From Oceanispirochaeta sp. (GTDB lineage: Bacteria; Spirochaetota; Spirochaetia; DSM-2461): a stretch of DNA of 47,211 nucleotides. How positions within the stretch are numbered: the first letter of the stretch is position 1; each line of letters starts with the position of its first letter. Shown here in pieces: positions 38,404 to 43,881 of this stretch. The stretch spans positions 1 through 47,211 of the forward strand of contig NZ_JAQIBL010000308.1 of NCBI RefSeq assembly GCF_027859075.1, read 5' to 3'. Position numbers and translations under genes: made by a program. The notes beneath the pieces were generated by a model that made no database searches, was not told the origin of the DNA, and saw nothing but the letters and a program-made list of their open reading frames with translations.

Positions 38404-38784
38404 TTGGCTAAGACAAAGAAAAAGAAAGAAAAGAAAAATATATTTGAGGGTAATGTTTATATTCAGGCTACCTTCAATAATACTATCGTAACCATTACTG
38501 ACTTGAAGGGAAATGCAGTTGCATGGAGTAGTGCTGGATCCCTGGGTTTTAAGGGTGCTAAAAAATCTACTCCCTATGCCGCTCAGACTACAGCCGAAAC
38601 AGCAGCCAACAGAGCCCTTGATTTTGGGCTTCAGGAAGTTAACGTTTTTGTTAAAGGTCCTGGTGTCGGTCGGGAATCTGCGATCAGATCCTTGGGTGGA
38701 CTTGGTCTTCGGGTGAAATCTATCAGGGATATTACTCCAATTCCTCATAATGGATGCCGTCCTAAAAAGAGCAGAAGAGTATAA
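38404..38784 (+). CDS. rpsK: 30S ribosomal protein S11
   Basis: Protein of 126 residues of the 30S platform near the E-site codon. [24 protein letters not shown] and the C-terminal [16 protein letters not shown] are diagnostic. The start codon is TTG at 38404 after TTGGAGG. In many bacteria rpsD follows; here a hairpin and rpoA follow. Confidence 0.96.
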
Positions 38785-38800
38785 TACCTAAAAGCAGGTG

Positions 38801-38837
38801 GAACAAATACCGGTTTGATACTTCAAACCGGTTGTTC
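38801..38837 (+). promoter_or_regulatory. Strong bipartite hairpin before rpoA
   Basis: ACCGGTTTG (38809-38817) pairs with CAAACCGGT (38824-38832); the outer bases GAACA and TGTTC extend the stem past a three-base bulge. No good T run follows, and the rpoA site AAGGAG is about 15 bases downstream. It may be an attenuator, a processing site, or a protein-binding element controlling rpoA and rplQ. Confidence 0.55.
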
Positions 38838-38861
38838 GCTTATTTGTAGTAAGGAGCATAA

Positions 38862-39902
38862 ATGGCACGTAAAAACCTATTGAAGGGATTTAAACGACCA
38901 AAAGGAATCACCTTTGAACATGGTGAGCAAGAATCTGGTTATGGTAAATTTATGGCTTACCCTTTTGAAAGAGGATATGGAGCAACAATCGGTAATTCAT
39001 TACGTCGGATTTTGCTTTCTTCTATTCAGGGATACGCCATAACAGCAGTGAGAATTACAAGCTACAATAAAGATGGTAATGCTCATGTTATAACCAGTGA
39101 ATTTGAATCCATTCCTGAAGTCGTTGAAGATACACCCGAATTGATAAGCAATTTAAAATCTCTGCAATTAAGCCTTCCTGAAGACATTGAAGAGAAGACA
39201 ATCCTTGTTGAGTGGAAAGGGATTGGCGTCATGACTGGTGCAGATCTTGAAAAAGATGGTATCACAGTGACCAACAAAGACCTCAAGATTTGTACCTTGA
39301 TGGAAAATGCTGATCTCGAATTCGAAATTCAGATAGACCTTGGAAGAGGCTATGTTCCTTCTGAACTGAATGATAAATATATTGAAGTTGTAGGGACAAT
39401 CCCTATTGATTCAATCTTTTCCCCCATCAGGAAAGTAAGGTATGAAGTTGAGAATACTCGTGTCGGTCAGAGGTCTGACTATGACAAATTGATCCTTGAA
39501 ATCTGGACCGATGGTACAATTTCACCTGAGGACGCTCTTGCAGAGTCAGCCAAAATTGCTAAAGACCATTTCACTATTTTTATCAATTTTGATGAAGACG
39601 ATGTGGTTGGAGATGATGAAGTTGATGAGGAAGAAGAGAGAGTTAAAGCTCTTTTAGACACTCCTGTTGAAGAACTCGAATTGTCAGTACGCTCAAGTAA
39701 TTGTCTAAAAAATGCAAACATCAAAACAATTGGTGATTTAACCAGAAGAACTGAAGAGGATATTGCTAAAACCAGAAATTTTGGTAAAAAATCTTTGATG
39801 GAAATTAAAGAAAAGCTGAAAGAATGGAATCTCTCTTTAGGTATGGTTGATTATAGTGTTTTGAAAAAAACAATTAAACTTGAGAATAATAAGGAAGAAT
39901 AG
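38862..39902 (+). CDS. rpoA: DNA-directed RNA polymerase subunit alpha
   Basis: Protein of 346 residues. The N-terminal domain dimerises and holds beta and beta'; its signature [24 protein letters not shown] is intact. An acidic linker (about residues 245-262) leads to the C-terminal domain (about 265-340), with [22 protein letters not shown], that contacts UP elements and activators. AAGGAG precedes the ATG. rplQ starts two bases after the stop. Confidence 0.98.
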
Positions 39903-40270: not shown

Positions 40271-40374
40271 AGAAAAACAAAAGAATCCTGACTGAGGATT
40301 TGATATATGAAAGAGACGTTAAAATTACTTTTAATGAATCCCTAATGTAAAGTTTAATTCGTTTCGATATTAGT

Positions 40375-40420
40375 AAGGAAGGTTTCTCTCCTCAAGGAGC
40401 GATATCTTCCTTATTTTTTT
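40375..40420 (+). terminator. Strong intrinsic terminator closing the ribosomal block
   Basis: AAGGAAG (40375-40381) pairs with CTTCCTT (40406-40412), with an inner CTCC-TCAA-GGAG stem, followed by ATTTTTTT. It should end the alpha-operon transcript. It lies only 16 bases before the start codon of the next gene, so that gene's own promoter must lie inside or before it, or depend on read-through. Confidence 0.8.
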
Positions 40421-40436
40421 GGGTAAACAAAATTAA

Positions 40437-43400
40437 ATGCGAATAATCTATAAGATTCTAACAGCTTTATTTATCTCTTTAATCCTGATAAGCACGCTAG
40501 CATATTTTGCTTTCACAGGAGCCTTCACACAGATTGAAACTCAATATTTCAGTCAGCGCGTGATCGAAGGGCAGAGGGATAGGCTGGCGCAGAACAATGA
40601 ACTTGTTCTTCAGTATCATGCTGCCAATATAGAACGCATTAATAGTATTCTGGAATTAAGCTATTTAAAAAATGTTTATGATCCCAGTCAGGAACGTTCC
40701 GACATAGTCGATCGTTCAAATTTATTTGGCAGACTGTCAGATGAGCTTGCAGGGTTTCAGTATATAAGAATCATTGACCAGAACAAATTGAATATTCTTT
40801 ATAGCACTAATGATGCTGACATTAAACAAAAAGACAGTAATCGAATACTCTATAAACAATGGAAAGAAAGCCCTGATTATACTGCTCCCATCCAATATGA
40901 GGATTCTAAAGATTCCATTCCTCAGACAATTTATGATCCATCAAGCAGCCGGATTCTATATTCCTTTCCCGCCGTGGATCAGTACGGTTTGTTTAAGGGT
41001 ACTGTTGTTCTGGAGTTTTCCATATCGGGCCTCCAGAACTATCTTTACAGACAGGGTGGAATTTCAGATGTCAATAGAGTCCAGATTCAGGATCTGGACA
41101 TCCTGATCTATAATATTACAGCAGACCAATTTGACCTGTTAAGAGACAATATAAACCGCTTTAGATCTCTCGCAGGAGAATCGAATTTTATTCAGAAAGC
41201 TGCAGATAGTGAGGGCTCCGATTATTATCTGATCCAGGCTGTGGATAATCATGGATCATTATCTATGGCAGTCATCCCCGGTCAGGACCTTGTTCTAAAC
41301 AATGAATTCCGAATACTACTTCTACTTTCACTTTTTATTACTCTGTTTTTGATGCTGTTTCTGATATTTAATGTTAAACAAAATCAGGAACTTATACTTA
41401 AAAAGAAAATCAAGAAGTTTCAATTGACCTTTCTCAAAGATCTTCTAGATGCAGAAGATGAGCTGAATTGGGACAAATATGAAATAGAACTCAGATCACG
41501 GAAAGATGAAGTCCGTAAAGAACTTCTCAAAGACCTTTCCGGTAAATTTAAAAAAAATAAACTGGCTGAAATTGATCAGTTATTGGATAAGAGCTGGGAT
41601 GAGATCATAAGAGTTTTGATCAGCAAGAAAGATGAGCAGAAGGAAGAGCCCAGTTTTACTGTAAGTGATCTAGAAAAAATGATTAAATCTGCTCTCAGTA
41701 ATGCCCATTTTACTGTTCAGAATGCTGAAGTTCAGAATGTAAGTCAAATTTCTTCTCAGGGATCGGCTCCAAAAACTGGAATAAGACAAATGCAACCTGT
41801 CGATGTTGTTGATGTTGATGATGAAGAACTCGATGAACTCGATGAACTCGATGAGGTTCATGATGCAGGAAATCTGGGAGAGCCCATTGCTGTTGAAGAA
41901 CTGGATGAGTTGGATGATGCCGAGGAGATGGATGAGCTCGAAGAACTTGACGAAGAGTCTTCTTCTGAAAGCCCGGCACAACCGGTAGATGTTGAAGTAC
42001 TTGATCAGCTGGATGATGTTGAGGAACTGGATGATCTGGAAGAATTGGATGAAGTACCAGAGGCTGCTGTTGATAATAATGATGGAATAGAATCTCTCAA
42101 AGAACCTGATGATGAGTTCATAGAAGTAGATAAAGAGTCTGACCTTGTATTGGAACCTTATATCAATCCATTAGACCTTGATTCATCGGAAGAATCTGAA
42201 TCCACCGACGATGCTGAGATCCTCGAAGAACTTATAGACCTCGGAGAATCAATTAAACCCGAGCCTACCGGATTATTGGAAGATCTGGATTCGAGGGCAG
42301 AGAAAGGAGAATCAGATCTTCAGGATTCCATGATGATTGATCTTGATGAGGTCAATAGTGGTTTCAGCATCCGAGGATTAGTTGAATCCATGGATGTGGA
42401 TCAAATCTCTCGAAACCTCGAAATACGGTATAACCAGTTTCTGAATGAGGATGAGGCCAACCAAGAGGGTAAAGCCGTTCTTGATGAACTTAATGTTGTT
42501 GAGGAAGTTCAGGAATTGCCAGTTGAGAATGTCGATATGGAAGATCTGGATAAACTCCCGGTTGCCTATGATGATGATCAGCAGGAAGAGGATCTTATAG
42601 AATTGGATTTTCATGACGATCTTTCTCTTTTCGGTTTAGATCTAACAGGTGGATATCCGATCAATCAGGAAAAAATCAGGGAAAAGCATATTCAGATGGA
42701 GAGCATAAATAATGTTGAATCAGTAGGCATTGAAGTAGCTTTGATTGAAGAGCCTCAAGAAACCGAGTTTCTTGATGATAAAGGGCTGATAGAGTTAGAT
42801 ACTATCAGTTCCAAAGACTATTACGGTGAAACTGATTCCTCAATGGATTATAATTCAAATGGATCAGCAATAGTTTCTGATCTGGAACATGATCAGAGAG
42901 GGGATGATGGCATGAAAAGTAAAGATAGCTTAGATATTTCCCCATCGGATGAGATAGAGCCGAGAGACAATCTTGAAAACCTTGATGAGTTGGAAGAGCT
43001 GATAGAATTGGAAGACGTCGATGAGTTGGATGATCTCGAGGATATCGAAGACATCGAGGAATTGGATGATCTCGAGGAAGGTGATGATCTTGAAGAGTTG
43101 GAAGATCAGGATAAGATTGAAGATCCGGCTGATGTCGTAAAAATAGATTTTGCCGCATATTTACAGAAGGCTGGAATTGAATTTGAAAAAGAAGTTCTCC
43201 CCGAAAGTGAATCCGAAGAAGAGATTCTGGATGGCAAGATTACTTCTGAATCTTTTATGCAGGGAATGGATAGCCTGGTTCAAAACCTTGCCGAAGATCT
43301 CCTACCTCAAATCAGTGATGATGACTTGGATATCGATGAATATTCAATCAGAGATGAGGTTTTCAGTCTTAAAATGACCGAAGAAGGTTTGGATTTTGAC

Positions 43401-43793
43401 AAATTTCGGAGTCATTACCGGTCTGGATCTCTTGGTTTGCTGAAATCCCTTCGTGACTTGACCCGTGAATACAAGGCTCTTAGTGGTATCCTCATGAAAA
43501 AAGTCAATAATAGATTGGTCACAGTACATTCAATCGGTATCAATGAAGATGGTGTTGATAGTCTGTCTTCTGCAAATATACCTGTAGTCCTGAATCAACT
43601 GACCAGTGAGAGGGGTATTGTTTTCATTAAAAACAAAGACCACTCTTCCCTGGAACATTGTTTTGCACATCCCGATTTCAGACTTTTTAAATGCTGGGTT
43701 TTCATGCCTTTGGTCAGTAATGAAGGATTTGAATATATCTTCCTTGGCTATAAGGATTCATCTCAATCTCTCCTGGGAGAATTGTTTGGATAA
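40437..43793 (+). CDS. Large two-TM membrane protein with acidic ELD repeats, function unknown
   Basis: Protein of 1118 residues, not recognised as a named family. Residues about 7-28 and 291-312 are membrane helices, so the 260 residues between them face outside and look like a sensor domain of the dCache/PDC type (strand- and Tyr/Asp-rich, with YDPSSSRILYSFPAVDQYG). After the second helix comes a basic, coiled segment (about 315-410). Residues about 456-540 and 846-891 are almost only Asp, Glu and Leu, with ELDELDELDE-like units. Residues about 965-1118 form a final folded domain, perhaps GAF-like. There is no kinase, HAMP, GGDEF or methyl-accepting signature. No good ribosome-binding site precedes the ATG. 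It lies between rplQ and rny, and a sensor or scaffold role is inference. Confidence 0.65.
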   Translation: MRIIYKILTALFISLILISTLAYFAFTGAFTQIETQYFSQRVIEGQRDRLAQNNELVLQYHAANIERINSILELSYLKNVYDPSQERSDIVDRSNLFGRLSDELAGFQYIRIIDQNKLNILYSTNDADIKQKDSNRILYKQWKESPDYTAPIQYEDSKDSIPQTIYDPSSSRILYSFPAVDQYGLFKGTVVLEFSISGLQNYLYRQGGISDVNRVQIQDLDILIYNITADQFDLLRDNINRFRSLAGESNFIQKAADSEGSDYYLIQAVDNHGSLSMAVIPGQDLVLNNEFRILLLLSLFITLFLMLFLIFNVKQNQELILKKKIKKFQLTFLKDLLDAEDELNWDKYEIELRSRKDEVRKELLKDLSGKFKKNKLAEIDQLLDKSWDEIIRVLISKKDEQKEEPSFTVSDLEKMIKSALSNAHFTVQNAEVQNVSQISSQGSAPKTGIRQMQPVDVVDVDDEELDELDELDEVHDAGNLGEPIAVEELDELDDAEEMDELEELDEESSSESPAQPVDVEVLDQLDDVEELDDLEELDEVPEAAVDNNDGIESLKEPDDEFIEVDKESDLVLEPYINPLDLDSSEESESTDDAEILEELIDLGESIKPEPTGLLEDLDSRAEKGESDLQDSMMIDLDEVNSGFSIRGLVESMDVDQISRNLEIRYNQFLNEDEANQEGKAVLDELNVVEEVQELPVENVDMEDLDKLPVAYDDDQQEEDLIELDFHDDLSLFGLDLTGGYPINQEKIREKHIQMESINNVESVGIEVALIEEPQETEFLDDKGLIELDTISSKDYYGETDSSMDYNSNGSAIVSDLEHDQRGDDGMKSKDSLDISPSDEIEPRDNLENLDELEELIELEDVDELDDLEDIEDIEELDDLEEGDDLEELEDQDKIEDPADVVKIDFAAYLQKAGIEFEKEVLPESESEEEILDGKITSESFMQGMDSLVQNLAEDLLPQISDDDLDIDEYSIRDEVFSLKMTEEGLDFDKFRSHYRSGSLGLLKSLRDLTREYKALSGILMKKVNNRLVTVHSIGINEDGVDSLSSANIPVVLNQLTSERGIVFIKNKDHSSLEHCFAHPDFRLFKCWVFMPLVSNEGFEYIFLGYKDSSQSLLGELFG
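41826..41852 (+). repeat. Three perfect 9-base tandem repeats coding Glu-Leu-Asp
   Basis: GAACTCGAT occurs three times in a row and starts the first acidic block of the large membrane protein. Short perfect in-frame repeats can change copy number by slippage, altering the protein length by multiples of three residues without breaking the frame. Confidence 0.8.
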
Positions 43794-43853: not shown

Positions 43854-43881
43854 TTGACAAATAGGTCTTTACTTATATAAT
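43854..43881 (+). promoter_or_regulatory. Near-consensus promoter of rny-ymdB-tlyA
   Basis: TTGACA at 43854-43859 and TATAAT at 43876-43881 are both perfect, with a 16-base spacer, 29 bases before the rny start and after an AT-rich stretch. This should be a strong housekeeping promoter. Confidence 0.75.

Follow-up and report, generated by a model that had tools for sequence, protein, structure and literature searches.

What does a membrane protein of 1118 residues do when it carries a sensor-like outer domain and a very long acidic tract but no known output module, and is its location between a block of ribosomal protein genes and rny a clue to the answer? The gene that raises this question lies in the window, i.e. 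the whole stretch of 47,211 nucleotides of Oceanispirochaeta sp. DNA analyzed here (contig NZ_JAQIBL010000308.1). From its N-terminus, the protein comprises a first transmembrane helix (TM1), a periplasmic domain, a second transmembrane helix (TM2), basic juxtamembrane helices, an Asp/Glu/Leu tract and a compact C-terminal domain, and nearly all of the 55 family members examined show the same layout with the same relative positions. An initial sequence-only reading had described most of this, and its description is borne out, by hydropathy for the two-helix membrane sensor (TM helices at about residues 3–29 and 287–313), by Lys/Arg-rich helices after TM2 for the coiled basic segment, by composition and charge scans for the roughly 500 residues of Asp/Glu/Leu in two dense blocks, by a GAF-like AlphaFold2 model for the C-terminal domain and by Pfam/NCBIfam negatives for the missing output module. 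The features of the locus, including those of its leader and of the neighboring rny promoter, are listed in Table 1.

Table 1. Features of the locus, in window coordinates (aa, residues of the encoded protein)
Feature	Position	Strand	Description
Predicted sigma28 (FliA)-type promoter	40342..40370	+	CTAATG (40342-40347)-N15-TTCGATAT (40363-40370); conserved two-box leader element
Terminator-like hairpin and T-run	40373..40420	+	ends 16 nt before ATG; genus-conserved, about -20 to -22 kcal/mol
Whole CDS	40437..43793	+	ATG start, 1118 aa, stop included in coordinates, frame uninterrupted
TM1	40443..40517	+	aa 3-27, by hydropathy; helix 2-72 in the AlphaFold2 model
Periplasmic double-Cache (dCache) domain	40518..41294	+	aa 28-286; AlphaFold2, Foldseek, Pfam in homologues
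TM2	41295..41375	+	aa ~287-313, hydropathy up to 3.1
Juxtamembrane helical module	41376..41642	+	aa 314-402; signature FQ..FL..W...E...R...V....D.LID.SWDEI
Short conserved helix LExxI	41661..41699	+	aa 409-421, helical in model; E413 nearly invariant
Asp/Glu/Leu tract	41802..43211	+	about aa 456-925; dense blocks near aa 456-600 and 838-910
GAF-like C-terminal domain	43344..43790	+	aa 970-1118; AlphaFold2, Foldseek, weak profile matches
Perfect 12/12 sigma70-type promoter of rny	43854-43881		TTGACA-N16-TATAAT, directly upstream of rny

Searches for output modules were negative. Neither Pfam nor NCBIfam gave a HATPase, HisKA, other kinase, GGDEF, cyclase, MCP signaling or HAMP match in the window protein, and Pfam gave no kinase, cyclase, MCP signaling or HAMP match in the N-modules of homologues. 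Neither library matched the window protein to any family, the Pfam matches to YdgH_BhsA, DUF2270 and TAN being taken as chance, and no paper on the protein family was found in the literature. To this extent the claim of an undescribed family holds, but its end domains are recognizable: the architecture is new, the folds are not, since both ends belong to known sensor superfamilies (dCache and GAF), and by the standard that the sequence-only reading set, clear homology of both ends to a described family, its claim is half refuted. The architecture as a whole (dCache domain, juxtamembrane module, acidic tract and GAF-like end) can be proposed with high confidence.

In the AlphaFold2 model of the N-module (25 rows; mean pLDDT 77.6, mostly 80–94 over the periplasmic domain), a long N-terminal helix is followed by alpha/beta Cache lobes, giving a double PAS-like Cache fold between the two TM helices, and Foldseek matched this outer domain to the dCache sensors Tlp3, PscC, Mlp24 and HK1S-Z. 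Pfam recognized dCache_1 in 5 of 25 homologues, with a best value of 4.6e-9, but not in the window protein. Conservation reaches 2.18 bits/site in the distal Cache lobe and 1.69 in the proximal one. The amino-acid motif of dCache_1 is R-x-W-Y, and the ligand motif of dCache_1AA is Y..R.WY...D. In the window protein the place corresponding to R-x-W-Y reads R136-x-L-Y139 in an alignment by eye, and a similar comparison (by eye, without a model) finds the R and the Y of the dCache_1AA motif in part of the family and the W absent. The predicted topology, TM1, helix, tandem Cache and TM2 with the sensor outside the cytoplasm, is that of dCache receptors such as MCPs, histidine kinases and diguanylate cyclases (dCache_1/PF02743); however, these receptors carry MCP, kinase, cyclase or HAMP modules and the window protein carries none. 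Cache families are reported to occur with known output domains, SMP_2 excepted (PMC4822843), and a Cache receptor devoid of any output module departs from what is usual for this sensor class.

Together with the TM helices, the juxtamembrane module shows the highest conservation in the family (2.63 bits/site). It is basic (28% Lys/Arg over residues 326–400), returned noise matches and nothing significant against Pfam and the PDB, and occurs as a single copy in its own genome, where the GAF-like module likewise has no paralogue. It is a concrete target in the search for a new output mechanism.

In the acidic tract, residues 456–988 consist of 36% D+E, 5% K+R and 31% LIVMA, the net charge over residues 460–960 is -156, and the D+E fraction peaks at 0.42–0.48 over residues 451–575 and at 0.60 over residues 851–900, with 9/18-bp tandem repeats in the DNA under the acidic blocks. 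In nearly all of the 55 members the acidic segment starts at about residue 430–500 and has a median length of 255 and a maximum of 659 residues, and this presence at the same position in nearly all of them means that the acidic layout is not due to chance. By the same measure, a single relative (L095) lacks the tract, and in a T. pallidum-group member it is reduced to about 46 residues with the Cache and juxtamembrane modules remaining. Between the window protein and three congeners the N-module is 66–72% identical with no gaps, as against 47–50% identity and 58–138 gap positions in the tract. Composition is thus conserved while length and sequence drift, as would be expected for a putative flexible segment selected for composition rather than sequence.

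At the other end of the protein, the AlphaFold2 model of the C-terminal region (14 rows) has a mean pLDDT of 71.6, with low values for the first 51 residues and values mostly of 70–92 over residues 976–1105. The top Foldseek matches are nearly all GAF domains (E 2.6e-4 to 1e-3), and the profile matches point weakly in the same direction (PtsP GAF 3ci6, E=0.011; GAF_2 in 5 of 27 homologues, best 0.0084, and none in the window protein). The likeness to PtsP GAF 3ci6, DosS GAF and Geobacter GAF/HD 3eea thus lies in predicted fold and weak profile similarity, but the window domain is divergent, goes undetected by Pfam and is missing from the Treponema-type members checked and from some relatives. 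In its place, DGLFTI...NRDFKALVDSVL or a motif like it closes the Treponema-type protein, and several other lineages have a similar motif ahead of their GAF-like domain.

The family is widespread and probably old. A protein search of 61 genomes from relatives of the window found the gene in 43, and an N-module profile found it in 161 of 297 Spirochaetia genomes; a scan for related loci with a single protein returned none, and an alignment-based scan returned 24 named MAG loci. Distant homologues exist outside the class Spirochaetia, and those in other classes of the phylum keep the N-module, an EEIEE-type acidic tract and the GAF-like end. Two of them (L160:1861-4842 and L161:2002-4920) have the full layout in different neighborhoods, the first with an MscS-like channel and a GGDEF gene alongside. 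A genome of 1,139,633 bp, the size of that of T. pallidum, keeps a member as a 677-codon frame, the true start of which is probably downstream. From the gene order (adk = TP0595), we take this member to be TP0593, a name under which no relevant paper was found. Interrupted members occur at loci L046 and L064: the G055 gene has an in-frame TAA, and L064 holds a 538-aa ORF followed by 1.7 kb before rny, in each case through sequencing error or decay. Altogether, this is a deeply conserved spirochaete family for which no name was found, present in about half of the sampled Spirochaetia genomes.

Two informative features were overlooked by the sequence-only reading, namely a sigma28-type promoter and a phyletic tie to FliA and flagella. 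Of the 67 leaders of the family, 36 have CCGATA no more than 150 nt from the start (shuffled mean 1.6, maximum 7), while upstream of neighboring genes it is rare or absent (secY 0/36, rpsM 1/44, rpsK 0/44, rplQ 0/48, rny 1/31, ymdB 1/28, tlyA 1/26). It also precedes rpoA in 7 of 44 loci, there without a -35 box. Leaders were aligned on CGATA alone, so that the upstream box was left unselected, and 76% of them then have T at -20 (binomial p ~1e-13) and 48% have C at -21 (p ~1e-6), positions -19 to -17 being A-rich; these p-values are too small because related leaders are not independent. The resulting two-box site is found in 38 of 67 leaders (shuffled mean 1.1) and is specific to the family gene among nine genes tested; 13 of the 67 leaders have no CGATA-type site. 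With a sigma28 position weight matrix and a fixed -35, 11 of 55 leaders reach p<=0.05 (2.75 expected), which is weakly significant per leader; the CCGATA count and the CGATA-based alignment gave stronger signals. A pattern of the form TAAA-N15/16-GCCGATAA is conserved and found in excess throughout the family, and the window has a degenerate version of it (CTAATG, with TTCGATAT instead of GCCGATAA at -10). In the window's own genome, a relaxed pattern has three matches, i.e. the gene leader, a flagellin promoter and one likely spurious site, compared with seven for a reversed control; it is not in genome-wide excess and its count alone proves nothing.

These boxes resemble those of flagellar genes. 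The sigma28 promoter of T. denticola flaB2 has been mapped, with CCGATAA at -10 and TTAA at -35 (PMC9481697), and several flagellin genes of the genomes studied here read CTAAAG-N14-(A/T/G)CCGA(A/T)A. The TAA(A) and CCGATAA boxes of such FliA-class genes and their spacing match the family leaders, but the products differ, the window protein being unlike flagellar structural or classical chemotaxis proteins. A FliA (sigma28)-type promoter is thus a likely reading of the leaders of the family. The hairpin listed in Table 1 begins where a sigma28 transcript would start; it may terminate the rplQ operon as well as shaping the mRNA at its 5′ end.

The distribution of the gene points in the same direction. 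Of the 297 genomes, 151 have both the gene and FliA, 10 the gene only, 45 FliA only and 91 neither (Fisher p ~3e-30, ancestry ignored). The ten genomes with the gene and no FliA are mostly incomplete, apart from G064 (94% complete, 7% contamination, no strong FliA match) and G231 of family f9, where the match to the gene itself is weak; FliG is missing from 3 of the 161 genomes with the gene. The gene is absent from f20, a flagellate but FliA-less family whose small multi-replicon genomes look to us like Borrelia. The genus Borrelia is reported to be without sigma28 (PMC11607428). The gene is also absent, save for the weak match in G231, from the mostly non-flagellate families f3, f4, f9 and f18. 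In the RNase Y tree these families group as a single clade. Shared ancestry therefore confounds the co-occurrence, about two losses may account for much of the statistic, and co-occurrence with flagella was rejected as independent statistical proof. On the same tree the presence/absence pattern needs about eight changes, as would fit an ancient gene with several losses. As 45 FliA-positive genomes, near-complete ones among them, lack the gene, it is neither essential to motility nor required for flagella themselves; four Treponema-family genomes (G138, G184, G189 and G266), each 99% complete with flagella and FliA, have no detectable copy. The tie to FliA and flagella by distribution is therefore suggestive and depends on few independent events.

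Considered together, promoter and distribution lead to a tentative answer, in which the protein would be a FliA-controlled, periplasm-facing receptor or scaffold linked to spirochaete motility; we hold this at a little less than even confidence. The gene would be expressed within the FliA (sigma28) motility regulon and its product would be a spirochaete-specific inner-membrane receptor or scaffold. Its dCache domain would face the periplasm that holds the flagella and may bind a small ligand, the state of which could pass via TM2 into the juxtamembrane helical module, a likely surface for dimerization and partner-binding output. The acidic tract would act as a negatively charged, repeat-expanded and presumably flexible tether. 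In most lineages it carries the GAF-like domain, which may add a cytosolic ligand or protein contact, whereas the Treponema version and those of some relatives end with the short motif ...DxxFKxLVDSVL. Partners could dock at the juxtamembrane module or at the C-terminal domain or motif. As neither an enzymatic nor an MCP module turned up, the simplest assumption is signaling through protein–protein contact, with the flagellar or chemotaxis machinery as the most plausible recipient. A stronger version, of which we are doubtful, makes the protein a sigma28-controlled Cache sensor dedicated to periplasmic-flagellar motility, with output by a novel juxtamembrane module and no need of MCPs or kinases, present in the ancestor of Spirochaetia and still kept in a minimal genome of the T. 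pallidum type. Through the sigma28-type promoter and the distribution tied to FliA, a nameless reading frame becomes a candidate, open to experiment, for the sensing or regulation of periplasmic flagella.

Other explanations fit part of these data. The protein could be a general envelope or stress receptor or scaffold with no tie to motility, the FliA pattern reflecting vertical inheritance and CGATA some other regulatory site. Vertical inheritance with few losses fits the RNase Y tree, the losses include small-genome FliA-positive lineages (f7, f12-g17, f15 and f21), and the neighborhoods outside the rplQ context vary and are not flagellar. This explanation is nevertheless rather unlikely, as it leaves aside a two-box element with the spacing and sequence of sigma28 sites that is specific to this gene among the nine tested. 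Sensing might instead be secondary, the protein being a passive charged tether or organizer whose tract holds or buffers basic proteins or cations or forms a membrane condensate. PopZ/ZipA-like proteins likewise join a membrane- or pole-associated helical part, a long acidic or charged linker and a small C-terminal domain, although the window protein adds a periplasmic Cache sensor and the likeness is one of layout, with no sequence relation expected. Acidic composition does persist phylum-wide even when sequence is lost; yet because the tract shrinks or vanishes while the Cache and juxtamembrane modules stay, as in the T. pallidum-group member and in L095, it appears dispensable before the sensor, and a passive role is improbable.

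The location of the gene raises a further alternative, a membrane-anchored acidic scaffold that localizes or regulates RNA decay as a partner of RNase Y, itself a membrane protein, with an acidic tract that could mimic RNA. The sequence-only reading had called the location of the gene, with the ribosomal block on one side and rny on the other, intriguing and had proposed checking whether the place beside rny is conserved. Both flanks could be read at 56 loci: rplQ precedes and rny follows the gene at 22, rplQ alone is present at 12, rny alone at 4 and neither at 18; most copies follow rplQ, and rny is directly downstream in 26, so that conservation beside rny is partial. Where a genome lacks the gene, rplQ often directly abuts rny-ymdB-tlyA, leaving a clean empty site, and in Treponema the gene is far from rny. 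Co-occurrence is not obligate either, RNase Y being present in 293 of the 297 genomes as against 161 for the gene. The perfect sigma70-type promoter directly upstream of rny suggests that rny is transcribed separately. On the grounds of position, promoter and co-occurrence, a partnership with RNase Y was rejected as the main hypothesis and is given a very low probability. With rny having its own promoter, a hairpin after rplQ and variable flanks, the rplQ/rny neighborhood is probably inherited gene order and not evidence of shared function: the position is real and ancestral, but probably no functional clue. No conserved partner gene was seen outside the rplQ context, nor in the Treponema-type loci read by eye, where the neighbors vary (rimO, hflX, gatC-like, ABC transporters). 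Within the ribosomal block of the window genome, rpsD is absent from the rpsK–rpoA interval, a gap of 77 bp (38784–38862) compared with about 650 bp, room for rpsD, in many relatives.
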